From a bacterium (GTDB taxonomy: Bacteria > Armatimonadota > UBA5829), in the NCBI GenBank assembly GCA_021371935.1, contig JAJFVF010000020.1, positions 1-33,559 on the forward strand: DNA of 33,559 bases. The letters run 5' to 3'. The position numbers were made by a program, and so were the translations under genes. Below, piece by piece: positions 4,907 to 27,294 of this stretch. Position 1 is the first letter of the stretch. Each line of letters begins with the position of its first letter. The notes below the pieces were generated by a model. The model saw nothing but the letters and a program-made list of their open reading frames with translations, had not been told where the DNA came from and ran no database searches.

Positions 4907-7900
4907 TTAAGGCGCAGGCAAGACGAGATCACATTCTGCCTCGGCCTTGACCCAGAATGCCTGCCATGGCGCTAATACACCGACCGCATCAGACACTTCA
5001 GTTTTATCGTATACCAGATAGTAGCTACCCGCTTCAGGATCCCATCCCCAGGCATAATTTCCGACAAGGTCATCAGCCTCGCTAAGGCTGTACGTGTGCC
5101 CTGAGTAACTTACCTTTATGGCATCAGGATCCCAGGTTACATTCGACACAAACGGATTGCCGATTATATTCCAGCCGGCGTATAAGTGGATTGTCGCATC
5201 ACTTTCCTGTGATGGAATCATTCCTGTGGGCGTTATGCGCGTACTGCCGAATCGCACCCAGAACCCACGTCCCGGCGTTTCATTGGCGGGATCAAAGTAT
5301 GTCTGCTCATCGGGATACATTACATACTCATTGGCCAGAGTGTCATACATCGCCCAGCTATTTGAATAGAAACCAACTGCCATCTTTGGATCAGTCTCAT
5401 CAGGGATGATCGGTAGAGATACCATCGCTATATCAGTCCATATATCATCACTTGGAGTCCTCTCAAGCACGTTTACAATAAGTGAGTCAGTCGCTTTATT
5501 ACCCGCCGTATCCGTCACTGTTATAGTTATCGTTTCGCTGTAGCTGTCATCACCATCACTTGTAATAGTGATGTCGCCAGTGCTCCAGGACGTGGTTCCG
5601 CTGCACTCACCATTGCTCCCCTTTGAATTCGACCATTTCACATTAGCAATGCCGCTGTCATCCGATGCAGTCCCTGCAATCGAAACCGTATTGACGTTTC
5701 TTGTGCATTGGGTATCTGTCGTCGGCGATGTGATCGCAACTGTCGGAGCCACACCGTCGAAATCGACGCTCACTGTGCCTGTTACAAGATTACCATCTCC
5801 GTAATCATTGTGCGCTTCATCTGCCTCAACATAAGCAATCACTTCTCCGGTCTTGCTCATTCCACTTATGGCAACCGAATATGTCTTGTTGTCACCGGTG
5901 TTGGTTATAACAGCCTGTGTAGCCGCAGCAGTTCCGCCGAGTGTTATGTCACCGGTCACAAAGTCAGTGACAGCTTCGCTGAAAACAACCACCAAATTGA
6001 TCGGAGAATCTTTGGTAGGGTCAGCCTGGCCTTCGGCAAGGCTGAGAGTTGCAGTCAGAGGCTGCCAGGCATATGTGACTGTCACGGATGATGAAACCGT
6101 GTTTAGATTACCCGCTTCATCACTGACGACACCCGCAGGTATCTGCGCTATTACGGTGCCCGCCGATGTCAGCCCACTTACAGTAATGGTATATGTAGTC
6201 TTATCAAGTGGATCTGCCTCCAACACTGTAATACTCTTCGTGCCGCCGGCAGTACCTGTTAGTTTTACATCTGACTTCGTAAACCCTGAAATAGGCTCGC
6301 TAAATACTGCCTTAAAGCTGATTGGAATAGTCCTGGTGCTATCTTCCTGACCGGGGGCCCTGCTCAGAATAACAGATGGGACATCCATATCATACTCTAC
6401 AGTGCATTCACCCGATGCGACGTTTCCATTGCCGTCCAGGTCATATGCAGAATCCATCGGAATCGATATTGTCACATCACCTGAGCTGCTCATGCCGCTC
6501 ACAGCTACTGTGTATATCGCACCATCGATGCTGGTAACTTCAGCATTTGTCGGATCAGCCGAACCGTCGAGCGTCACATCGCTGCCTTCAAAACCAGTTA
6601 CTTCAGTGCTGAATACAACAGTGAAGTATATTGTTGACATGTTTGTCGGGTCTGCCTGATCGTCGAACTTTGTTATTGTAACTGATGGTCCCGGCCAGTT
6701 ATACGATATCTGGTCAAGGAGAAAACCGTCCAGACTCGCATTGCCTGCCTCATCATAGGCAGCGCCCGCGGGAATTGATATCGCCACAAATCCAGAACTT
6801 GTCATCCCCGAAACCACAACGTCATATATGCTGTTTAGTGAACCGTCGCCAGGAGTAACAACAGCCGTTGTCGGGTTCGCAGTACCACTGACAGTCACAT
6901 CGGATGAAGTAAAGCCTGACACCGCCTCAGAGAATAAGACCCTAAAGTGGACTGGGCTGACATCAGTAGGATTATCCTGGCCTATGGCTGGTTCCATCGT
7001 CACCGTCGGTGAGGCAATATCATATGTGACCACATTATCGCCGCCGTCGGAGGCCTCGCTGTCATTAAATCCACTAAGGTCAGCAGCAGCACCCTCGGGA
7101 ATGTCTATCTGAACAGTCCCCGTCGATGTCATACCGTAAACGGATACTGTATACGTCGCCGAACTGCCCGTTACTATGGCTGTTTTTGTTCCGCCGGCTG
7201 TGCCGGATATCATAACATCATCAGCACTGTCACCAAAACCGGTAACCGGCTCGCTGAAAACAACCTCGAACCTGACCGGCTGCGTATTGACTATGTCAGC
7301 CTGGCCATCAGCCTTGGTTATTGTAACAGTCGGGTTCGTCTGGTCATCGTAGACTACTTCGTTGTCAATGATATTCGCTTCGTCTGCGGCGTTAACGTTA
7401 TAATTACCCGCAGCATCCTGAAGCGACCCCACTGGGATATTGATTATTACACTGCCCGAATGAGAAGCATCATCGACCGTGACTGAGTATGACAGGGCAT
7501 CAATTGCGCTGACCTCGACACTCAGGTTGTCGCCGACCGTGCTATCGGAAATATCAACGTTGTCTTCTGTAAAGCTCGTAACGGCTTCAGACAAGGTCAC
7601 CTTGAAATTGATCGGCAGAACCATCGTTGGATCATCCTGTCCATCAGCCAAATCTATAGTAGCAATCGGTGAGGTCGTGTCGTAAAGAACTGTGTCCGTT
7701 ACACCTGCCTCTTCTGTTGTGGACGCCGTATTTGCATTGCCCGCAGTGTCAACTACCACTCCGGCTCCGACTCCAAGTTTCACCGTTCCTTCAACCATAC
7801 CGCTCACGGAAACATTATATTGAATGCCCGCTGCGATCGGGGTCACAATCTTTTCTATAGCCGCTGTACCGCCCGTGCCGGTGCCGGTAACTGTCACTTT

Positions 7901-10900
7901 ATCGGCGTCAAACCCAATTACTGTCTCGTTGAATGTTACAACGAAGTTGATTGGGCTTACATTGGTCGTGCCGGACTGACCATTGGCAAGACTGATTTCC
8001 ACAGCCGGAGGTTGATTATCCAGATGAACATGATTGTCCGTGCTGGTTGAAGCTTTGTTCTTGATCCCGGCGCTGTCAGCCGCAACATCCGCAGGAACCG
8101 CCGCTGTGACAGTTCCCTCGCCTACCAAGCCGTTTACAGCAATCTCATACGTCGTGCCATCTGTCATTGTCGCATCGGTAAATGAAGTTGCAATCGCTGC
8201 GTCACCATACGCATACTTCAGGTTGCCATTGGTTGCGTCATAATAGCTGATGATAGGAATATCAGAAGAGTCAAGTATCAAAGAACTATACATACCAACA
8301 TCATCCCCAGGATCCTCAGCATCAGCCGGGTCACCATCGTCGGCGGTGATTATGGTCCATGTGATAGGAGAGGATGCTGCATTGCCTTGAGCGTATTTCA
8401 GGACATTGTCGGTCGCATCATAATAGCTTATTCGAGGAAGACCATTCGAATCCAGCTTCAATGAACTGAACTGACCTACATCGTAGTCGTCGTCACCGTC
8501 TTTGCCGTCATCTACGGTCATTACCGTAAATGTAGGATTGGTCGCAGCATCGCCTTCGGCGTATTTCAGGTTGCCATTCCACTCGTCATAATAACTGATC
8601 CTGGGCTTGCCGGCCGAATCCAGCGCAAGGGATACATATGCGCCGACATAGCTGCTAAAATCGACTGTCTTAATAGTCCATGTTGGATTCTCGGCAGCGC
8701 TTCCCTCGGCATAAAGCAGGTCGCCGTTTTCCAGGTCATAATAAGCTATACGCGGTCTGCCGCTTGCATCGAGGGCTAAGGAGCTGTGAATACCGACATT
8801 ATCGTCCGCATCAGCACCGCCATCCACAACAGAGCAATGCCAAACGCTGTTCTTATAATACGCATACTTCAGTCTGGTATTTGTTGCATCATAGTAGCTG
8901 ATATACGGGACACCTGTAGAACTGAGTTTCAGCGACGTATACTGCCCAACATCACCTGCCTCATCAACAGTCTGGCTGTCCCATCTCGAACCGTTCCAGA
9001 TTGCATATTTCAGATCGCTATCAACCATATCGTAATAGCTTATTCTTGGATAACCTAAACCATTTACTGCCAGCGAAGTACACGCGGCCCAGCCGCCCGC
9101 ATCGGCGATGCCGGTAGACCACCGTGAGTTTGCGGCATTGCCGGTGGCATACTTGAGCGTATTGGCTGTCGAATCGAAATAACTAACATGCAAGTTGTCT
9201 GATGGATCGACAGTCAAGAAACTGTACTTGCCGACATTATTGGCCGGTCCGGTTTCAGTGAACGTTGGGACCGCGGTCCCAGTCAGAGTCGTCGGGTCCG
9301 ATTTTACAATATACAGATCTGAGGTATCATCGAAATCCGTAACCGGTTCGTTGAATACCGCGGTGAAGTATATCGGGCATGCCTGCACCGGGTCATCTTG
9401 ATAAGATGCCTGGTTTATAGTCACGGCAGGCGTGCTGTAATATGTGACTAATGGAGCATATGTTGTATCAGTAGTCGACGCGGTATTGCTGTTGCCGGCA
9501 AAGTCGGTGACCACATTCGCAGGAATACTCATCGTCACCGTGCCGTCAGTCGTCATTCCGCTTACAGCGACGTTGTATACCGCACCACTGCCGGTAATCG
9601 TCGCGGTCGACGCACACGCTGTGCCGCTTATCACAACATCCGAGCTTGCGAATCCTGAAACTGCCTCGCTGAAAGTAACCTTGAAGTTGACTGCGGAAAC
9701 ATCATATACAGTCGTCGACTGTGTTGTGGCACGCGCAACAACTACACTCGGGCTTACATTATCATAAGTTACTTCATTATCCGTGCTGGTTGACGCCGCA
9801 TTGCTTATGTTATCTGCATTGTATGCAGCACCTGCGTTGACGTTTACTTCAACCACACCAAATTCGTCCATTCCGCTGACCGCAATGTCATATGTTGTGC
9901 CGGACCCGGTAATTGTTACTGTGTCTGCGCCCGCACCGGATACTGTGACGCCGCTGCTGCTGAACCCGGTGACCGTGTCACTGAACACTGCAGTGAAGTG
10001 AATGACGGAACCATTGGTCGGATCAGCTTGACCTTCAGCCTGGTTTACCTCGACTGTAGGAGCGGGAGCGTCATACTGGACACTGGCAGTTCCGGAGGCC
10101 GAGTTGCCGAACCCGTCCACAGTGACGACATCTCCAGGTATCCTGACCGTCACTGTACCCGACTTATGTATGTTGCTCACCGATATCGTATACACCTTGT
10201 AAGTCGAGTCTGCATTAGATACCGTCACGGTTGGTGTTGTGCCATCCTCAAATGCCGTCCCGCTGACCTCTATATCTGATGATGTAAAGTCAGTCGGAGA
10301 CACCACCTTACTGAATGTAGCAGTGAAGACTATAGGCAGCGTTGTCGCTGGATCCGATTGAGATGCCCCAGGCGCCACACTGACAGTCAGCGGCATATAG
10401 TATTGCACAGTATTGTCTGTGCTCTCAGAAGGCTTATTGCCATTACCGTCAGCATCTTGCGCCACACCAATCGGTATGGTGACTATGACAGTGCCCGACT
10501 TGATCATTCCACTTACGGCTATGTCATATGTAGTTCCACCACTCGTCGATGTGACCGAGGCAGTCGTCGCACCAGCCGTGCCGTCCAACACTACATCGCT
10601 ATCCGTAAAGCCTGTTACAATCTCTGAAAACACAGCAGTGAAATGAATTGTGGTGTTCTCTGTAGGGTCACTTTGCCAAGTAGCCTGGTTTACAAGCACC
10701 GAGGGAGCAGTGTCACCGGAATAGTAATATTGAACAACGTTGTCAGTGCTTGTAGATTCCTCATTGGTATTGATACCGACACCCGACGGATTACAATCCC
10801 AGGCGGCTCCCTCAGGAATAGAGACTCTTACCGTGCCGCTGCTTGACATCCCCCTCACGGCCACATTGTAATTGCTGTAATGACCATATGAATCGGCTGT

Positions 10901-13900
10901 GCCGATAGGTGTTATTACGGCCTGTTTGGACGAAAAACCGGCGTTGCCAGCTATTACAAGCACACGTGAGATGTCAGATGCAGTGTAAGAACCTGCAAAG
11001 CCAATAACCGGCTCTGTAAATACGGCTGTATAGTTGATCGTCCCGTCGGTAGTTGGATCGTCCTGAGAACCAGCCTGGTTTATCGTACACTCAGGAGCTG
11101 ATCCATCATACCAGATAGAATCGCTTGCAGATGCGGTATTACCACTGCCCGCAGCATTTGTGGCGACATTTGCAGGAACAGAGACAGTAATGCTGCCCTT
11201 GCCTGCCGCTGACCTGATAACCAGGTCATAATAGGAACCACCGCCGTCGAGGACAGTGTCGGTGGCGCCCGCAGTCCCGCTGATCTCTATGTCATCAGCT
11301 GTAAGGCCATATACCGGCTCGCTGAATATTATCGCGAAGTGGATCGGCAACGACGATGTGGGGTCAGACTGTCCAATTGCATCACTGACAACTACACTCG
11401 GCACTTCATCCACAAAACTCGCACTGGCAGTATTTGATGGAAGATTACCAAAACCAGTGGAAGTTGAATTTGCCGCATCACCAGGGACATAACAGCTCAC
11501 CGTGCCGCTTGCGTATGGAGTAACCTCAACCCGATAGACACTGTTCGGTGTCGTCTCAATAAAGCCTGAAATATAGCCGTTGTCGATGTCTACATCAGTG
11601 GATGCAAAACCATCTACATCCTCAGAAAAAGCAACAGTGAATGTCAACGGTATTGAAATTGCCGGACTCGCCGGGGCTGTAACTGTACAGCTCGGTGGAT
11701 AACCGGACGTATCATTGCCGATACAATATCTGTATTTCAGAGAATTGTTCGTCACATCCTGATAGCTCAAGTGAGGATTGTCATTTTCGTCCAATACCAG
11801 AGACACATATCGTCCGACATCGTTGGTGTCTGTCTCCGCCTCCGCCTGGCCATCATCCAAAATTGATACTGACCAAGCCGGACCCTCACTGCTGTCACCC
11901 TCTGCTATCTTGAGGTTGCCGTCAATGGAGTCATAGTAACCGATAACAGGCTTATCATCTGAATCCAGGACAAGTGAACAATACGTCCCCACGCTGTTTG
12001 TTGTGTCTACTGTTCCTATTGTCCAAGTCGGACTTACAGCTGCGCTGCCTTGGGCATATCTTAGGTCACCGTTCGTGACATCATAATATGCAATACGCGG
12101 AAAGCCGCCGGAATCCAGTGCCAGAGAGCTGTACTGGCCAACATCGTTTGCACTTTCGACAGTTGTGATAGTAAATGAAGGGCTTGTGGCCAAGGTGCCT
12201 TCGGCATATTTCAAAGCTGTATTGGTCGTATCATAATAACTGATACGCGGCTTACCGGCAGAGTCCAGTGCCAGCGAGCAGTATTTGCCCACATCACCGA
12301 CCGAATCGACAGTCTGTATTGTCCACGTCGGGTCGTTCACAGCACTGCCCTGGGCGTAAAGAAGGTCATGATTGGTCTCGTCGTAATAGGCTATTCGGGG
12401 TCTGCCATTGATATCCAGAGCAAGGGAACAATACGTGCCCACTCTGTCACTGGCCCCTGATGATCCGTCAACTATACCGGATTTCCATACACCATTCCTT
12501 AAGTAGATATACTTAAGGTCAGTATTGGTGACATCATAGTAAGCTATATGTGGGTTCCCATCGGAATCAAGCGCAAGCGATGTATAGGAACCTACATTTG
12601 AAGCGCTGCCGTCCAGAGTCTGCACCTGCCATTGAGTGCCGTCCCAAGCCGCATACTTCAGGTCGCCATTTGTGCTGTCGTAGTAGCTGACTTTTGGATA
12701 ACCACTGTCCGGGTCCAGCTTGAGAGAACTCGCCAAACCTAGCGTTGCCGTCACACCATATGACCCACCGTCATCGGCCACGTCATTCCAGTATCTATTG
12801 GTACAACCAACACTGAGCGTATATGAAACCGAATTGCCCGCAGTATCATAAGCGGTAATTGTAATTACATTTGTGCCCGGCTCAAGATAAATGCCGTTTT
12901 TAGCCCAAGATGTTGTGCCCGTACATGTACCGCTGCCGCCGCGGTCATTTGACCAGGTTACTCGGGCGACGCTTGTGTCATCAGTAACATTACCTGCAAT
13001 GTCTATAATGGGTCTGGCAGTGGTGTATGTGGCAGAATTATCAGACACCACACTAATACCATCACCTGCATCCGGCCGAGTTAACGCCAAGCCAGATGGC
13101 GCAACATCATCATATACGACTGAGTTGACAGTGCATGCACACTGACTTGCTGACCAGTTTCCTACACCCTGGTCGTCCGAGGTCGCACTGTCTTGCGGCA
13201 CATAAATCCTGACACGGCCGGGGTAGGTCATTCCGCTTACGCCGACGGTAAATACCTCTCCTGAATATCCATCATCCTCAGTCAAAACAGCCGTTTTTGT
13301 GCCGCCTGCGGCCCCCGCATTGCTTACCGACTCAAACTCAATATCGCTGCCGGAAAAACCACTTACTGCCTTGCTGAACTCTATGTGGAAGAATACATTC
13401 GGGTCATTTGTCGGATCGCTTGATATGGGAGTAATTTTAGTGCGCGGCGCATCAATGTACGTGACAACAGGACCAGCCACATCCTCCTCATTTGTCAGTG
13501 GCTCATCATCGGAAGTCGTAAATGCACCTGCGCCGATATACAGACTAAGCTGGCAATCCTTGGCAGGATATACAGTATAGGTAATTACATTGCCTGAAAC
13601 AGAGACTAATGTAAGGTTGCCATTGCCGCTGTCGCATTTGTCCCCCAATGGAAAAGGAGTGGCATATATATCCGTATCAGGACTGCAATATAGAATAATT
13701 TTGCTGGCATCCTTAATGCTTATCACTCCCTCACCGGTGGTGGTGAGTGTTATATAGAACGTTACCGGCATGTTTACACCCGGCTGGCCTATCACCTGAG
13801 TGCTTGGCGCAGTAATGGTGACACCAACCTGTGCCCATAAGCCGCTTGCGGCAATCATTAGCAAACCACTGATAAGAAGAGATAATGTGAAGAAGCGCGA

Positions 13901-13924
13901 CTTACTCCTGCGGCACGTTCCCAT
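4907..13924 (-). CDS. Giant secreted Ig-repeat / double-propeller protein (3005 aa)
   Basis: The N-terminus (MGTCRRSKSRFF, then a hydrophobic segment ending GLWAQ) is a signal peptide. Sixteen copies of an ~85-100-residue Ig-like repeat (Big-type) follow, with the pattern A-x-GQ-x-DPT ... F-x-V-x-FSE-x-V-x-GF ... Y-x-V-x-VSGM ... G-x-V-x-x-x-IPAG ... D-x-AGN. The first copy is near residue 165 and the last ends near 2720. Residues ~390-738 and ~1563-1910 are two blocks of seven ~50-residue repeats (SLALDSxGxPRISYYD, then DLKYA), each plausibly one seven-bladed propeller. Two further Ig modules (GxCxGTTSW, then DTAGN) bracket the array near 275-370 and 2725-2820. The last ~185 residues are a separate domain with GRGFWVRF, GWNIIGNPF and AFWVKAE. 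GGAG lies 12 nt before the ATG. The protein is a likely surface or matrix protein; its ligand is unknown and no enzymatic motif was found. Confidence 0.93.
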   Translation of the reverse strand: MGTCRRSKSRFFTLSLLISGLLMIAASGLWAQVGVTITAPSTQVIGQPGVNMPVTFYITLTTTGEGVISIKDASKIILYCSPDTDIYATPFPLGDKCDSGNGNLTLVSVSGNVITYTVYPAKDCQLSLYIGAGAFTTSDDEPLTNEEDVAGPVVTYIDAPRTKITPISSDPTNDPNVFFHIEFSKAVSGFSGSDIEFESVSNAGAAGGTKTAVLTEDDGYSGEVFTVGVSGMTYPGRVRIYVPQDSATSDDQGVGNWSASQCACTVNSVVYDDVAPSGLALTRPDAGDGISVVSDNSATYTTARPIIDIAGNVTDDTSVARVTWSNDRGGSGTCTGTTSWAKNGIYLEPGTNVITITAYDTAGNSVSYTLSVGCTNRYWNDVADDGGSYGVTATLGLASSLKLDPDSGYPKVSYYDSTNGDLKYAAWDGTQWQVQTLDGSASNVGSYTSLALDSDGNPHIAYYDVTNTDLKYIYLRNGVWKSGIVDGSSGASDRVGTYCSLALDINGRPRIAYYDETNHDLLYAQGSAVNDPTWTIQTVDSVGDVGKYCSLALDSAGKPRISYYDTTNTALKYAEGTLATSPSFTITTVESANDVGQYSSLALDSGGFPRIAYYDVTNGDLRYAQGSAAVSPTWTIGTVDTTNSVGTYCSLVLDSDDKPVIGYYDSIDGNLKIAEGDSSEGPAWSVSILDDGQAEAETDTNDVGRYVSLVLDENDNPHLSYQDVTNNSLKYRYCIGNDTSGYPPSCTVTAPASPAISIPLTFTVAFSEDVDGFASTDVDIDNGYISGFIETTPNSVYRVEVTPYASGTVSCYVPGDAANSTSTGFGNLPSNTASASFVDEVPSVVVSDAIGQSDPTSSLPIHFAIIFSEPVYGLTADDIEISGTAGATDTVLDGGGSYYDLVIRSAAGKGSITVSVPANVATNAAGSGNTASASDSIWYDGSAPECTINQAGSQDDPTTDGTINYTAVFTEPVIGFAGSYTASDISRVLVIAGNAGFSSKQAVITPIGTADSYGHYSNYNVAVRGMSSSGTVRVSIPEGAAWDCNPSGVGINTNEESTSTDNVVQYYYSGDTAPSVLVNQATWQSDPTENTTIHFTAVFSEIVTGFTDSDVVLDGTAGATTASVTSTSGGTTYDIAVSGMIKSGTVIVTIPIGVAQDADGNGNKPSESTDNTVQYYMPLTVSVAPGASQSDPATTLPIVFTATFSKVVSPTDFTSSDIEVSGTAFEDGTTPTVTVSNADSTYKVYTISVSNIHKSGTVTVRIPGDVVTVDGFGNSASGTASVQYDAPAPTVEVNQAEGQADPTNGSVIHFTAVFSDTVTGFSSSGVTVSGAGADTVTITGSGTTYDIAVSGMDEFGVVEVNVNAGAAYNADNISNAASTSTDNEVTYDNVSPSVVVARATTQSTTVYDVSAVNFKVTFSEAVSGFASSDVVISGTACASTATITGSGAVYNVAVSGMTTDGTVTMSIPANVVTDFAGNSNTASTTDTTYAPLVTYYSTPAVTINQASYQDDPVQACPIYFTAVFNEPVTDFDDTSDLYIVKSDPTTLTGTAVPTFTETGPANNVGKYSFLTVDPSDNLHVSYFDSTANTLKYATGNAANSRWSTGIADAGGWAACTSLAVNGLGYPRISYYDMVDSDLKYAIWNGSRWDSQTVDEAGDVGQYTSLKLSSTGVPYISYYDATNTRLKYAYYKNSVWHCSVVDGGADADDNVGIHSSLALDASGRPRIAYYDLENGDLLYAEGSAAENPTWTIKTVDFSSYVGAYVSLALDSAGKPRISYYDEWNGNLKYAEGDAATNPTFTVMTVDDGKDGDDDYDVGQFSSLKLDSNGLPRISYYDATDNVLKYAQGNAASSPITWTIITADDGDPADAEDPGDDVGMYSSLILDSSDIPIISYYDATNGNLKYAYGDAAIATSFTDATMTDGTTYEIAVNGLVGEGTVTAAVPADVAADSAGIKNKASTSTDNHVHLDNQPPAVEISLANGQSGTTNVSPINFVVTFNETVIGFDADKVTVTGTGTGGTAAIEKIVTPIAAGIQYNVSVSGMVEGTVKLGVGAGVVVDTAGNANTASTTEEAGVTDTVLYDTTSPIATIDLADGQDDPTMVLPINFKVTLSEAVTSFTEDNVDISDSTVGDNLSVEVSAIDALSYSVTVDDASHSGSVIINIPVGSLQDAAGNYNVNAADEANIIDNEVVYDDQTNPTVTITKADGQADIVNTQPVRFEVVFSEPVTGFGDSADDVMISGTAGGTKTAIVTGSSATYTVSVYGMTSTGTVQIDIPEGAAADLSGFNDSEASDGGDNVVTYDIASPTVTMEPAIGQDNPTDVSPVHFRVLFSEAVSGFTSSDVTVSGTANPTTAVVTPGDGSLNSIYDVVVSGMTSSGFVAISIPAGAAYDEAGNASLDGFLLDQISYNWPGPSVTITKFDDQADPTNMSTIYFTVVFSTEVTGFEGSDVTLDGSADPTNAEVTSIDGAIYTVAVSGMSSSGDVTISIPMDSAYDLDGNGNVASGECTVEYDMDVPSVILSRAPGQEDSTRTIPISFKAVFSEPISGFTKSDVKLTGTAGGTKSITVLEADPLDKTTYTITVSGLTSAGTVIAQIPAGVVSDEAGNLNTVSSSVTVTYAWQPLTATLSLAEGQADPTKDSPINLVVVFSEAVTDFVTGDITLGGTAAATQAVITNTGDNKTYSVAISGMSKTGEVIAYVEADEAHNDYGDGNLVTGTVSVDFDGVAPTVAITSPTTDTQCTRNVNTVSIAGTASDDSGIANVKWSNSKGSNGECSGTTSWSTGDITITSDGDDSYSETITITVTDTAGNKATDSLIVNVLERTPSDDIWTDIAMVSLPIIPDETDPKMAVGFYSNSWAMYDTLANEYVMYPDEQTYFDPANETPGRGFWVRFGSTRITPTGMIPSQESDATIHLYAGWNIIGNPFVSNVTWDPDAIKVSYSGHTYSLSEADDLVGNYAWGWDPEAGSYYLVYDKTEVSDAVGVLAPWQAFWVKAEAECDLVLPAP
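8190..9236 (-). repeat. Second seven-repeat propeller block in the 3005-aa protein
   Basis: Seven ~50-residue units with the pattern VGxYxSLxLDSxGxPRISYYD ... LKYA are encoded here. They interrupt an Ig-like repeat. The first half of that repeat (QASYQDDPVQACPIYFTAVF) is encoded just upstream, near 9400, and the second half (MTDGTTYEIAVNGLVGEGTV) just downstream, near 8150. Confidence 0.8.
11711..12750 (-). repeat. First seven-repeat propeller block in the 3005-aa protein
   Basis: Seven ~50-residue units of the same type as in the second block run from LASSLKLDPDSGYPKVSYYD to HLSYQDVTNNSLKYRY. This block lies between complete Ig-like modules and does not split one. Confidence 0.8.
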
Positions 13925-18714: not shown

Positions 18715-18790
18715 TTAGCCCGCGTTATTCACGAGGAACGTGAATAACGCTCTCGGAGATCCGGATTATGCGCTCGCCGCATGATCCGGG
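18715..18790 (+). repeat. Dispersed double-hairpin repeat, copy A
   Basis: This element starts TTAGCCCGC. Stem 1 is 12 bp (18722-18733 with 18739-18750; loop AGGAA). A spacer CTCTCGGAG follows. Stem 2 is 12 bp with one G-T pair (18761-18772 with 18778-18789; loop CTCGC). It is nearly identical in layout to copy B (26501-26576, opposite orientation), and paired positions differ in a compensatory way. It sits 6 bp upstream of the typA start codon. Confidence 0.85.
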
Positions 18791-18804
18791 CTGGCAAACG
18801 CGAC

Positions 18805-18843: not shown

Positions 18844-19043
18844 CCGAAGTTGCTATTGCTTACTAATTTATATTACCAGAATTTCACCCGAAGCACAAGG
18901 TATGGATACTGTTCGGTTTAGCAGGAATAAATAAGGCTCGGCAGGAGCCTCGCCCTCCCGGCATACCCGTCATTGGAAGAAAAAAGCTCACATTGAACCT
19001 AAATCAGCGTAAATTTCCAGATAACCGAACTCTCTCCAAGGTA

Positions 19044-23378: not shown

Positions 23379-23584
23379 TATTGCGTTGTTCCGTGAAGCA
23401 AAAGCCTGGAATCCTGGTAATGCTGCGTGTTTTGACTGGATATTTGGTGGTGATTATTTTGGATTTGGGAAACGTGTAGGGGCTTGTCGGAAGTACAGAG
23501 AAGCTGAGCCGGTCTGCTCACACAGGAAGATGAACCGACCGGCCTTTAAGACAATACTCAATATAAATTATAAAATACTAAATC

Positions 23585-26062
23585 TCAAGGTTTGCCTGAT
23601 TCCAATGCCTTAACCTTGGACTTGATCTCCTGGTTCGCAGGATCGAACTTGAGATAGTCTTTATAAGTTTTCACTGCGTCTAACGATTTGCCTGTCTTTT
23701 CCTGGAGACCGGCCAGATTGAGCACCAACTCACGGTCAAAAGGTATGCTCTTGACGGCTGCGGCATAACAGTCGATGGCATCCCGATCACGTCCCATGGC
23801 CTTATAGAGGTCGCCAAGCTTGCGATTGGCAGTGGGATCATCCGATTTCTTGGCCAGGACCTTTTTATACTCTTCGATGGCCTTGTCATTCTGGTTCGAT
23901 TCGGCATAGGCTGATCCGAGCACCATCGTCAGCTTGGTATTGTCCGAACTCTTGACCTCAAGCTCGGATAGCGTCTTGATCGCCTCATCGGCCCTGCCGG
24001 CTTTCTTGAGCGCGCTCATATAGTAGCCGTAAGGGGCGTTGTCCTTGCCGGATGTGACAATCGATTTCAAGTAATTCAGATACTCATCAGTCTTCTGTCG
24101 CGCTTCATAAATCTTGGCCAATGCGTCCAGTGACGAAGTGGCAGAAGGCTTTATATCTATGGCGCTCTTATAGGAGGCTATCGCGGCATCCGTATCGCCC
24201 AACTGCTCCTGGAGCTTGCCCATCTGCCCATATGCATACGCTTTGTAGCCCGCATTATCGGACTTGGCAATTTCAGCATATTGCTCAAGAGCAGCTTTAT
24301 TGTCGTCTTTCTTCTCAAGAAGCTGAGCAAGTGTGACACGCTGCTCAAGGCTTTGTGTATCTGACTCTACCAGTTTTTTTGCCTCGGCTATGGCATCATC
24401 TATCTTGCCCCATTTCTCATATAGACCTGGAATACGGTTTTTATAGTTTGCATCTATATCCGCAAGCTGCCTATAGACGGCAATCTCGGACTCATAGTCT
24501 TTCTGAGTGTCATATATGCGCGCAATAGAGCTGAGCACACTGACCGACTTCGGCGAAAACTCCAGTATCTTCTTATATTGCTCGATTGCCTTGTCCGGCT
24601 GTTTCTTGGACTGATAAAGGTCGGCAAGAGCATTATATGGGTTCTCGTTCTTCGGGTCGGCATCTATAGCCTTTTGCAGGAGAGCTATAGCATCATCGGT
24701 CTTGTTTTGATTGCGGAGGCAGCCTGCAGCTTTGACCATCGTGTCGGAATCGTTAGGCTTGATCTTAAGCGCAGACTGATACTGCGCATACGCTTTGTCA
24801 TTGGCTCCACTGCGTGCAAGCAGGTCGGCATAGCTGTTTATTATCGTCAGATCACTTGGAACTTTTTTTAAGGCCTTCTCATATTCAGCATAGGCCTCGC
24901 TCTTTTTGCCCTGGAAGACATATATATTCGCCATTCTTACATTGGGTACAGAGTCTTTCGGGTGGAATTTCTCCCATTTGCGGCAGGTTTTGATTGCACC
25001 GTCAAACTGTTTGTTTATCTCCTGCACATAGGCGTATACTTCCAGCGCCCGCTCGTCTTTCGGACCGGCACTCAGCGCCGCAGCCGCAGCTTTCATAGCC
25101 TTGTCGGACTTATTCAGATTCACCTGGGTCAGAGCGAGCCTTATATTTGCAGCGATACTTGAAGGTTGTGACTTGACAGCTGCCTGAAACTTCTCTTCCG
25201 CTTCCTTGTATTTTCCTTTGGTATAGTAGAGCGTCCCAAGGTCAAAATTGGCTTGATAGTTGTTCTTATCCGCTTTGAGCACACGCTCAAGCACATCTGT
25301 CGCCTTGGCTTCTTTGCCGGATGTGCCGTATAATCGTGCAAGCGACAATAGGGCAGAGACCTTCGTCTCAGGCAGCTTTGATGCGCTTTCATAAAGCTCG
25401 ATGGCCTTTTCCTTGTCGCCAATCTGCTCCGCCGAATAAGCCGCTATAGTTTTCGCTTGGGCATTCTTCGGGTCTATCACCGCAAGGCGCTCCATGGTAC
25501 CCAGAGCATCGCCATACTTCTTGAGCTTCATATAAGCATAGCCCAGATTAAACATCGCAGCCTCATTTTTGGGATCGACATGCAGGCTAGAACGCAGAGC
25601 ATCGACTGCAGGCTCATATTTGCCCAGCTTTAGGTTCACTACTCCAAAAAGATATCTGGCATGCGCATCTTTGGGCTTTTGGCCAATCATTTTTCGTGCA
25701 TATTTGAGCGCTTCTTTATTTTTATTACGCTCAATGAGCACACTGGTCAACCGCTCCAGAGCAAATTCGTTTTTCGGCTCTTTGGCCAATACACGCTCGA
25801 ACGCAGACTGGGCATTGCCCCACTTATTCTGCTGAATATAGATAACGCCCATATTATTTAGCGCGGGAGCTGAGTTAGGAGCCAGTTTCAGCACGATACG
25901 ATATTCGGCCAGCGCCTTATCCAGCTTACCCGACTGCTGGAGCTTCAAGGCATTGTTGAAATGTTTCTGAGCTTCAGACTTACTGTCCGCATGGCATACA
26001 ACACAGACGCATAAGAAGACCAATGCACTAATACATATCAGAACGCGCGATATTCTGGACAC
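23585..26062 (-). CDS. Exported tetratricopeptide-repeat protein
   Basis: The GTG at 26062 has GGGG about 6 nt upstream and opens a signal peptide (VSRISRVLICISALVFLCVC); a TTG at 26077 is possible but lacks a ribosome binding site. The remaining ~800 residues are about twenty degenerate TPR units of 34 residues, with typical units ALAEYRIVLKLAPNSAPALN, NMGVIYIQQNKWGNAQSAFE and AIEQYKKILEFSPKSVSVLS. TPR solenoids are protein-binding scaffolds. No other domain, membrane anchor or lipobox is present, so it is probably periplasmic. Standing next to the exported cohesin/dockerin cluster it may take part in assembly or secretion of surface proteins, but that is only positional inference. It has a strong promoter of its own and is divergent from the zinc-ribbon gene. 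Confidence 0.93.
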   Translation of the reverse strand: MSRISRVLICISALVFLCVCVVCHADSKSEAQKHFNNALKLQQSGKLDKALAEYRIVLKLAPNSAPALNNMGVIYIQQNKWGNAQSAFERVLAKEPKNEFALERLTSVLIERNKNKEALKYARKMIGQKPKDAHARYLFGVVNLKLGKYEPAVDALRSSLHVDPKNEAAMFNLGYAYMKLKKYGDALGTMERLAVIDPKNAQAKTIAAYSAEQIGDKEKAIELYESASKLPETKVSALLSLARLYGTSGKEAKATDVLERVLKADKNNYQANFDLGTLYYTKGKYKEAEEKFQAAVKSQPSSIAANIRLALTQVNLNKSDKAMKAAAAALSAGPKDERALEVYAYVQEINKQFDGAIKTCRKWEKFHPKDSVPNVRMANIYVFQGKKSEAYAEYEKALKKVPSDLTIINSYADLLARSGANDKAYAQYQSALKIKPNDSDTMVKAAGCLRNQNKTDDAIALLQKAIDADPKNENPYNALADLYQSKKQPDKAIEQYKKILEFSPKSVSVLSSIARIYDTQKDYESEIAVYRQLADIDANYKNRIPGLYEKWGKIDDAIAEAKKLVESDTQSLEQRVTLAQLLEKKDDNKAALEQYAEIAKSDNAGYKAYAYGQMGKLQEQLGDTDAAIASYKSAIDIKPSATSSLDALAKIYEARQKTDEYLNYLKSIVTSGKDNAPYGYYMSALKKAGRADEAIKTLSELEVKSSDNTKLTMVLGSAYAESNQNDKAIEEYKKVLAKKSDDPTANRKLGDLYKAMGRDRDAIDCYAAAVKSIPFDRELVLNLAGLQEKTGKSLDAVKTYKDYLKFDPANQEIKSKVKALESGKP

Positions 26063-26481: not shown

Positions 26482-26500
26482 TACCTCATAAAACCACTAA

Positions 26501-26576
26501 CCCGTATTATGCGTAAAGCGCATAATACGGGACTCCGAGAGCATTATTCACGTTTCTCGTGAATAATGCGGGCTAA
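26501..26576 (-). repeat. Dispersed double-hairpin repeat, copy B
   Basis: Read on the minus strand it begins TTAGCCCGC inside the stop codon of the response-regulator gene. Stem 1 is a perfect 12 bp (26541-26552 with 26558-26569, loop AGAAA) and stem 2 a perfect 13 bp (26501-26513 with 26519-26531, loop CTTTA); the spacer CTCTCGGAG matches copy A. Where copy A has G-C at the second position of stem 1, copy B has the corresponding A-T pair, so the stem is kept. Confidence 0.85.
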
Positions 26577-27181
26577 CCCTTTTTTGGCGGCTCATTCTCA
26601 ATTGCACGCAAGAATGCTTCATCCGCAATAATGATCTCATCGGCTGCCTGACGCATTGTTTTATTCTGATTGCGGCATTTGTGTCTGAGGTAGGTAAAAG
26701 CATCCTCTTCGTTTAGTGAGAGCCTTGACATAAGTATATGCTTGGCGCGCTCGGAGAGTTTTCTGGTCTCCAACGCGACCATGACATCCTCTGCCTCTTT
26801 GCGTAAAGCAGCAAGCACAGAAGCCCTGGCACAGACAAGCTCGATGTTGGCACACAGGCTTTCCTGGTCCACAGGCTTGCGCACGTATGTGCACGCTCCC
26901 GCCAAAGCCGCGCTTTCTATCCATTCCTTGTCCACTTGAGTCGACATAATCATTACAGCCTCGACTCCAAGCTCGATCAAGCGGTGAGTGGTATCGATCC
27001 CGCTGACGGAAGGACTTTCCATGTCGACCAGCGACACATCTGGATGCATCTGACTCGCAAGTTCAATTGCATCTTCGCAGCCTTCGGCTATGCCGACCAC
27101 TTCGTGCCCCGCCTTTTCAATTATAGACCGAATACTTGATGCTGCATCGGCCTCACAGACAACTAAAACTCGGCAACCCAT
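26573..27181 (-). CDS. ANTAR-domain response regulator
   Basis: The ATG at 27181 has a strong AAGGAG 7 nt upstream and lies just after a good promoter; the longer frame from 27241 would begin upstream of the predicted transcript start. The 202-residue product has a receiver domain (1-~120) with acidic residues Glu10/Asp12, probable phospho-acceptor Asp53 (LVDMES), Ser80/Thr81 and Lys102 (VRKPVD). A coiled linker and an ANTAR domain (~140-195: LETRKLSERAKHILM, EEDAFTYLRHKC, RQAADEII) follow. ANTAR regulators bind paired hairpins in nascent RNA and prevent termination when phosphorylated. No histidine kinase gene is in the window. Its stop codon lies within repeat copy B and a half copy (C) lies upstream of its promoter. 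Confidence 0.93.
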   Translation of the reverse strand: MGCRVLVVCEADAASSIRSIIEKAGHEVVGIAEGCEDAIELASQMHPDVSLVDMESPSVSGIDTTHRLIELGVEAVMIMSTQVDKEWIESAALAGACTYVRKPVDQESLCANIELVCARASVLAALRKEAEDVMVALETRKLSERAKHILMSRLSLNEEDAFTYLRHKCRNQNKTMRQAADEIIIADEAFLRAIENEPPKKG

Positions 27182-27229
27182 ATTATTGCTCCTTTCCAGA
27201 AACCGAGTTTCGCCCAAGTCGTCGTGCAG

Positions 27230-27258
27230 ATTATACGTCATTCATTGCAAGCAGGCAA
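27230..27258 (-). promoter_or_regulatory. Promoter of the ANTAR regulator gene
   Basis: A perfect -10 TATAAT (27230-27235) with a -35 TTGCCT (27253-27258, 4 of 6) at 17-nt spacing on the minus strand. The start point is predicted near 27222. Confidence 0.6.
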
Positions 27259-27273
27259 GTTATCCGGTATTAT
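27245..27273 (+). promoter_or_regulatory. Possible promoter of the phosphoribosyltransferase pair
   Basis: The -35 TTGCAA (27245-27250) and -10 TATTAT (27268-27273) are 17 nt apart on the plus strand, overlapping the divergent promoter of the ANTAR gene. The -10 lies in the left arm of repeat copy C. Confidence 0.42.
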
Positions 27274-27294
27274 GCGGGAAGCGCATAATGCGGT
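27264..27294 (-). repeat. Dispersed hairpin repeat, half copy C (stem 2 only)
   Basis: The arms GTATTATGCG (27267-27276) and CGCATAATGC (27282-27291) form a 10-bp stem with a 5-nt loop, matching stem 2 of copies A and B (shared core ATTATGCG/CGCATAAT). Stem 1 is absent. It lies between the divergent ANTAR and phosphoribosyltransferase genes. Confidence 0.7.

Follow-up and report, generated by a model that had tools for sequence, protein, structure and literature searches.

The double-hairpin repeat carried by the window, i.e. the whole 33,559-bp stretch of contig JAJFVF010000020.1 analysed here, very probably belongs to a family of MITEs which has ends and a YTAR target duplication of the IS1380 type and is moved in trans by an IS1380-family transposase. 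The family is new but of a well-known kind among mobile DNAs, it is not a new RNA, and its mobility is evident from the anatomy of the element together with an empty site in a congener. A mobile non-autonomous element had been among the readings offered in the initial annotation, and the target-site duplications, the empty site and a matching parent IS family all support it.

Copies A (18,715–18,790, plus strand) and B (26,501–26,576, minus strand) are 86% identical across 76 nt and share, as first described, a start consisting of TTAG and CCCGC, two stems of 12 and 13 bp, 5-nt loops and the spacer TCTCGGAG. The unit is larger than the coordinates first given and consists of a 72-bp core between two 4-nt direct repeats; the TTAG of the shared start is the left one of these, that is, target DNA outside the element. 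The core of copy A (18,719–18,790, plus strand, 94.5 bits with the covariance model) has the ends CCCGCGTTATTCACGA on the left and CCCGGATCATGCGG on the right (read inwards) and is made up of hairpin 1 (18,722–18,750) with a 12-bp stem and the loop AGGAA, and hairpin 2 (18,760–18,790), which occupies the position of the 13-bp stem of the family, has the loop CTCGC and shows T/G as its outermost pair. It lies between the left duplication TTAG (18,715–18,718), to which CTAA corresponds in the single-target empty site of the congener G004, and a drifted right duplication CTGG (18,791–18,794), all on the plus strand. The two-hairpin core of copy B (26,501–26,572, minus strand, 99.2 bits) is flanked by TTAG on the left (26,573–26,576) and by an exact TTAG on the right (26,497–26,500), both on the minus strand. 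A solitary stem-2-like hairpin at 27,263–27,293 (plus strand), referred to as copy C, is a partial copy or a relic and has no clean duplication; the congener lacks it. The consensus core of the family is CCCGCATTATTCACG-AGGAA-CGTGAATAATGC-TCTCGGAGA-CCCGGATTATGCG-loop-CGCATAATCCGGG, with terminal inverted repeats which are present but imperfect (CCCGCATTATTCACG/CCCGGATTATGCGC in the family alignment). The 72-bp core contains no gene and encodes no IS1380 DDE transposase; the element is a derivative or parasite of IS1380 insertion sequences, not a member of the family.

The covariance model, built from 33 copies, was used to search the window's own genome, G000 (3.54 Mb), and gave 153 matches, corresponding to about 140 copies once opposite-strand matches of the same palindrome were removed, compared to about four copies in G004. 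This number is far beyond chance. Such a search had been proposed in the initial annotation, which had reckoned with the possibility that the genome held only the copies seen in the window, and the count disproves the latter. The 4-nt flanks are identical on the left and right in 51 of the 91 full copies and agree at three of the four positions in 23, while 2000 trials with shuffled pairings of the same flanks averaged 16.8 exact pairs and did not exceed 31; the agreement is restricted to the register expected of a 4-bp duplication. The flank words vary among copies and match within one copy, with the consensus YTAR represented chiefly by TTAG, CTAG and CTAA. Exact pairs include not only TTAG/TTAG, CTAG/CTAG and CTAA/CTAA but also TATA/TATA, TTTA/TTTA and CCAG/CCAG, so a fixed terminal tag cannot account for the flanks. 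The duplications are imperfect in 40 of the 91 copies, some from mutation and some possibly from recombination.

Several loci carry altered forms of the element. In L072 (1,275–1,540), two shortened copies with TTAG-type duplications lie close together, each with hairpin 1 partly missing. L078 (1,492–1,524) contains a 33-bp hybrid hairpin which joins the left half of hairpin 1 to the right half of hairpin 2 and is flanked by TTAA/TTAG; it is possibly the smallest derivative of the element. Two copies with near-identical flanks around position 601 of L217 and L218 suggest that the element was duplicated there along with its surroundings.

The typA region of G004 is collinear with that of the window, but in place of the window's ACCC-TTAG-[72 bp]-CTGG-CAAACGCG it has ACCC-CTAA-C-CAAACGCG, a clean empty site with a single YTAR target at the position of copy A. 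G001 likewise lacks the insert. No clean empty site for copy B was found in G004, the intergenic sequence being too diverged.

These data bear directly on the alternative of a REP/REPIN-like repeat spread by a RAYT, a single-strand Y1 HUH transposase, which was also entertained in the initial annotation. The repeat is indeed dispersed, mostly intergenic, palindromic and multi-copy, the hairpin is bordered by a tetranucleotide similar to the GTAG tag of REPs, and the genome contains three weak Y1_Tnp matches, two of them over the cut-off. The tetranucleotide, however, differs from copy to copy and is directly duplicated on both sides, whereas REP tags are fixed and inverted in REPINs; the loci of the Y1 genes, inspected as the suggested check for a REP-associated tyrosine transposase, contain no hairpin of the family; and the same ends are found in IS1380 elements. 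Both the per-copy duplications and the empty site contradict the REP-like reading, which is extremely improbable.

Intact IS1380 elements with the same ends, CCYGNATTATTCAYGA, were found in the chromosome of Planctomycetes bacterium Poly30 (n = 3) and in a Nitrospira MAG (n = 1), the loci of IS1380 elements with both ends being L352, L353, L366 and L370. The Poly30 copies are 1708 bp each and all flanked by exact CTAG/CTAG duplications, with the second and third copies having two differences each from the first one; their left end reads CTAG followed by CCCGGATTATTCACGA and their right end, read inwards, is CCTGGACTATTCACGA bordered by CTAG. The Nitrospira copy (1707 bp) has CTAG followed by CCCGCATTATTCATGA on the left and CCTGAATAATTCACGA, read inwards and bordered by CTAA, on the right. 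The Poly30 and Nitrospira transposases pass the NCBIfam IS1380 equivalog model with 340 and 394 bits, respectively (cut-off 180), and also match Pfam PF13701. In G016 and G017, which belong to the window's own order, degenerate IS1380 C-termini have the same end about 250 bp downstream, and two further genomes carry IS1380 3′ remnants in which this end follows the transposase C-terminus after about 250 and 350 bp. Mismatches were allowed in the end pattern for this PF13701-based search, as a stricter pattern gave no parent.

Between the MITE and the IS1380 elements found, the terminal 16 bp or so alone match, the interior and the hairpins being without visible derivation, and the right end of the MITE has ATTATGCG where the parents have ATTATTCA. 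No PF13701 gene was detected in G000, a 98% complete draft. Multi-copy insertion sequences may drop out of draft assemblies, and the mobiliser in this genome may have been lost, left unassembled or be external. With the intact IS1380 transposase of G017 (510 aa) as a query, nothing was found in viral contigs and only one weak partial match in plasmids, and the plasmid and phage collections contained no convincing copy of the element. Judged by the homology of the ends, the assignment to IS1380 appears strong, and it was almost certainly an IS1380 transposase that moved these particular copies.

IS5 or IS701 types could be considered as another IS family with a 4-bp target, in which case the likeness to IS1380 ends would be secondary. 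IS701 elements do make 4-bp duplications too (PMC2266710), but their conserved termini (---YACT-Y--YR) do not fit CCCGCATTATTC, the IS701, IS4/IS5-type and IS3-type genes in relatives have no such end, and the IS1380 copies have both the ends and the duplication, leaving this origin with hardly any probability. Searches with IS4/IS5-type (PF01609) and IS701 (PF13546) transposases as candidate parents found no such ends. In G007 (L127), an IS3 transposase located close to an end was also rejected as a parent, its own TGACCTGCGC end lying inside the MITE; at this locus (1,505–1,660, at a contig edge), an IS3-family element has apparently inserted about 30 bp inside the MITE end.

Under the IS1380 reading, an IS1380-family DDE transposase acting in trans would recognise the terminal CCYGNATTATTCAYGA-type ends, and insert the element into a YTAR target, of which the 4 bp are duplicated. 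The insertions that survive lie mainly in intergenic DNA and at natural stop codons. Pairing in the stems would be kept by hairpin-templated exchange, which would also invert the loops, and not by selection on a transcript.

The paired differences between copies A and B, namely the A-T/G-C exchange in stem 1 and the changes in both arms of stem 2, are present as first noted. In the alignment of 33 copies, 97.5% of the cells in the stems are paired, and covariation scores 0.070, compared to 0.044 after shuffling (0 of 500 shuffles as high), with changes on both sides in three pairs only. Folded as single-stranded DNA, copy A is 5.9 sd better than its shuffles, none of 200 being as good. The loops occur in both orientations among the copies, with three reverse-complement pairs in hairpin 1 (AGGAA/TTCCT, AGAAA/TTTCT and AAGAA/TTCTT) and eight in hairpin 2 (CTTAC/GTAAG, CTTCC/GGAAG, CTTTA/TAAAG, CTTTC/GAAAG and four more); of the 26 loop-2 types, 16 also occur as the reverse complement, compared to six for the complement alone and two for reversal alone. 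Judging by what is established on the evolution of palindromes, template switching or hairpin-mediated exchange inverts a loop within a perfect stem and copies a mutation from arm to arm. The initial annotation had taken the stem-preserving changes as pointing to selection for an inverted repeat or RNA structure; the paired changes are statistically real, but selection for RNA structure is not needed to explain them. The loop inversions offer a simpler cause at the DNA level and suggest that the changes originated in hairpin-templated exchange instead of RNA selection.

A selected RNA structure, such as a double-hairpin terminator, an mRNA stabiliser or a leader, for instance on typA, would agree with the strong folding, with the covariation in excess of shuffles, with the frequent position of copies next to gene 3′ ends and with copy A lying directly upstream of the typA ribosome-binding region. 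It is nevertheless very unlikely, considering that there is no Rfam match at the gathering score, the positions of copies vary, the insert of copy A is absent from the congener, and the loops invert freely. Half-changes in the stems also give no sign of an RNA wobble preference, G.T and A.C being about equally frequent (42 vs 46), although this is a weak test as the copies are not oriented by transcription. It is possible that the MITE has effects on neighbouring genes which are secondary to its mobility. As for the hairpins themselves, a tentative and rather doubtful suggestion is that they are part of the mobility mechanism, with the transposase-binding sequence present twice per end in opposite directions and the palindromes extruding or switching template, which would be visible in the loop inversions.

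None of the 91 full copies lies inside a long reading frame, and 20 of them are located exactly in a natural stop codon; among the YTAR sites of the same loci that are free and non-coding, the figure is 20 of 295 (Fisher p = 1e-4). YTAR includes TAG and TAA, and CTAG has a stop on both strands. It is this content of the target that places copies in stop codons, and the gene keeps its stop because the target is duplicated. The left TTAG of copy B is such a case, its TAG being the stop codon of a response-regulator-like gene (26,573–27,241), so the earlier observation that copy B starts within a stop codon is borne out and accounted for by the YTAR target. Copy A lies 6 bp before the typA start codon, at the distance first reported, and just upstream of the ribosome-binding stretch AAGGG; the gene product matches the TypA equivalog with 893 bits. 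From this position, copy A could possibly affect typA.

Downstream of copy A, AAGGCTCGGCAGGAGCCTCGCCCTCCC (18,933–18,959) recurs at more than 30 listed places in the family relative G005 and in five loci of the own genome, and is another dispersed repeat. Other features of the window are an AT-rich segment (23,546–23,595), which matches several places in G004 at 91–94%, and a reading frame of 3005 aa on the minus strand (4,907–13,924) with many diverged internal repeats.

Of the 28 genomes in the class, 8 have the same ends together with YTAR, while a reversed control pattern gave zero matches, and several internally unrelated MITE types carry these ends within the same order and class. The double-hairpin form is present in G022, from another family of this class, with a conserved left hairpin and a right one which differs in both arms. 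Outside the class, the ends are carried by named genomes across phyla, above all Nitrospira, as well as Planctomycetota, Gammaproteobacteria, Mariprofundaceae and others. Paired elements from Nitrospira, Gammaproteobacteria, Planctomycetota and others, typically 160–240 bp long, have exact duplications in 42 of 77 cases and a match at three of four positions in 27 more. Where genes next to "orphan" ends in other phyla were tested, they proved ordinary. On a viral contig, a possible vehicle between phyla, lies a 216-bp relative (L351, 801–1,044) which shares these ends and has a CTAG/CTAG duplication.

The element has the features by which MITEs are recognised, being short (72 bp, within the MITE range of about 30–600 bp), non-coding and multi-copy, with terminal inverted repeats, a duplication of constant length and IS-matching ends. 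It resembles the IS1380 family (NF033539, PF13701) in the terminal CCYGNATTATTCAYGA and the 4-bp YTAR duplication, as in Poly30, with CTAG/CTAA in Nitrospira, but lacks a gene, measures 72 bp against about 1700 bp and forms a hairpin at each end. Duplication lengths vary within that family, the published member IS1247 making a 5-bp one (PMC3281130). Like other prokaryotic MITEs, for example MITEAba12 (PMC6382973; reviewed in PMC10969869), it is short, non-coding and multi-copy, with IS-type terminal inverted repeats and a target duplication of its IS's kind, while it differs from them in being shorter than most, in having two terminal hairpins with a 9-nt spacer and an IS1380 parent, and in that no co-resident IS was found in the window genome. 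IS1380 is not named in the review (PMC10969869), and the open-access literature searched contained no MITE of the IS1380 family, no IS1380 element with YTAR and no record of the element's end sequences as such. With REP/REPIN sequences (GTAG-tagged, PMC3733652) it has in common small dispersed intergenic palindromes, but it has direct 4-bp duplications, a DDE-type parent and no RAYT adjoining the hairpin.

The paired changes described here also serve as a caution that apparent compensatory changes in palindromic repeats can stem from hairpin-templated exchange. If the hairpins do serve mobility, the 72-bp element would be unusually easily mobilised by IS1380 transposases, which would explain why the hairpin architecture is kept while the stems drift between genera. 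The finding names a family of mobile elements which accounts for a portion of this lineage's intergenic DNA, and links it to IS1380 transposases. As Nitrospira, Planctomycetota, Gammaproteobacteria, Mariprofundaceae and others have the same ends, it becomes possible to annotate many intergenic hairpins of these groups for which there was no explanation.
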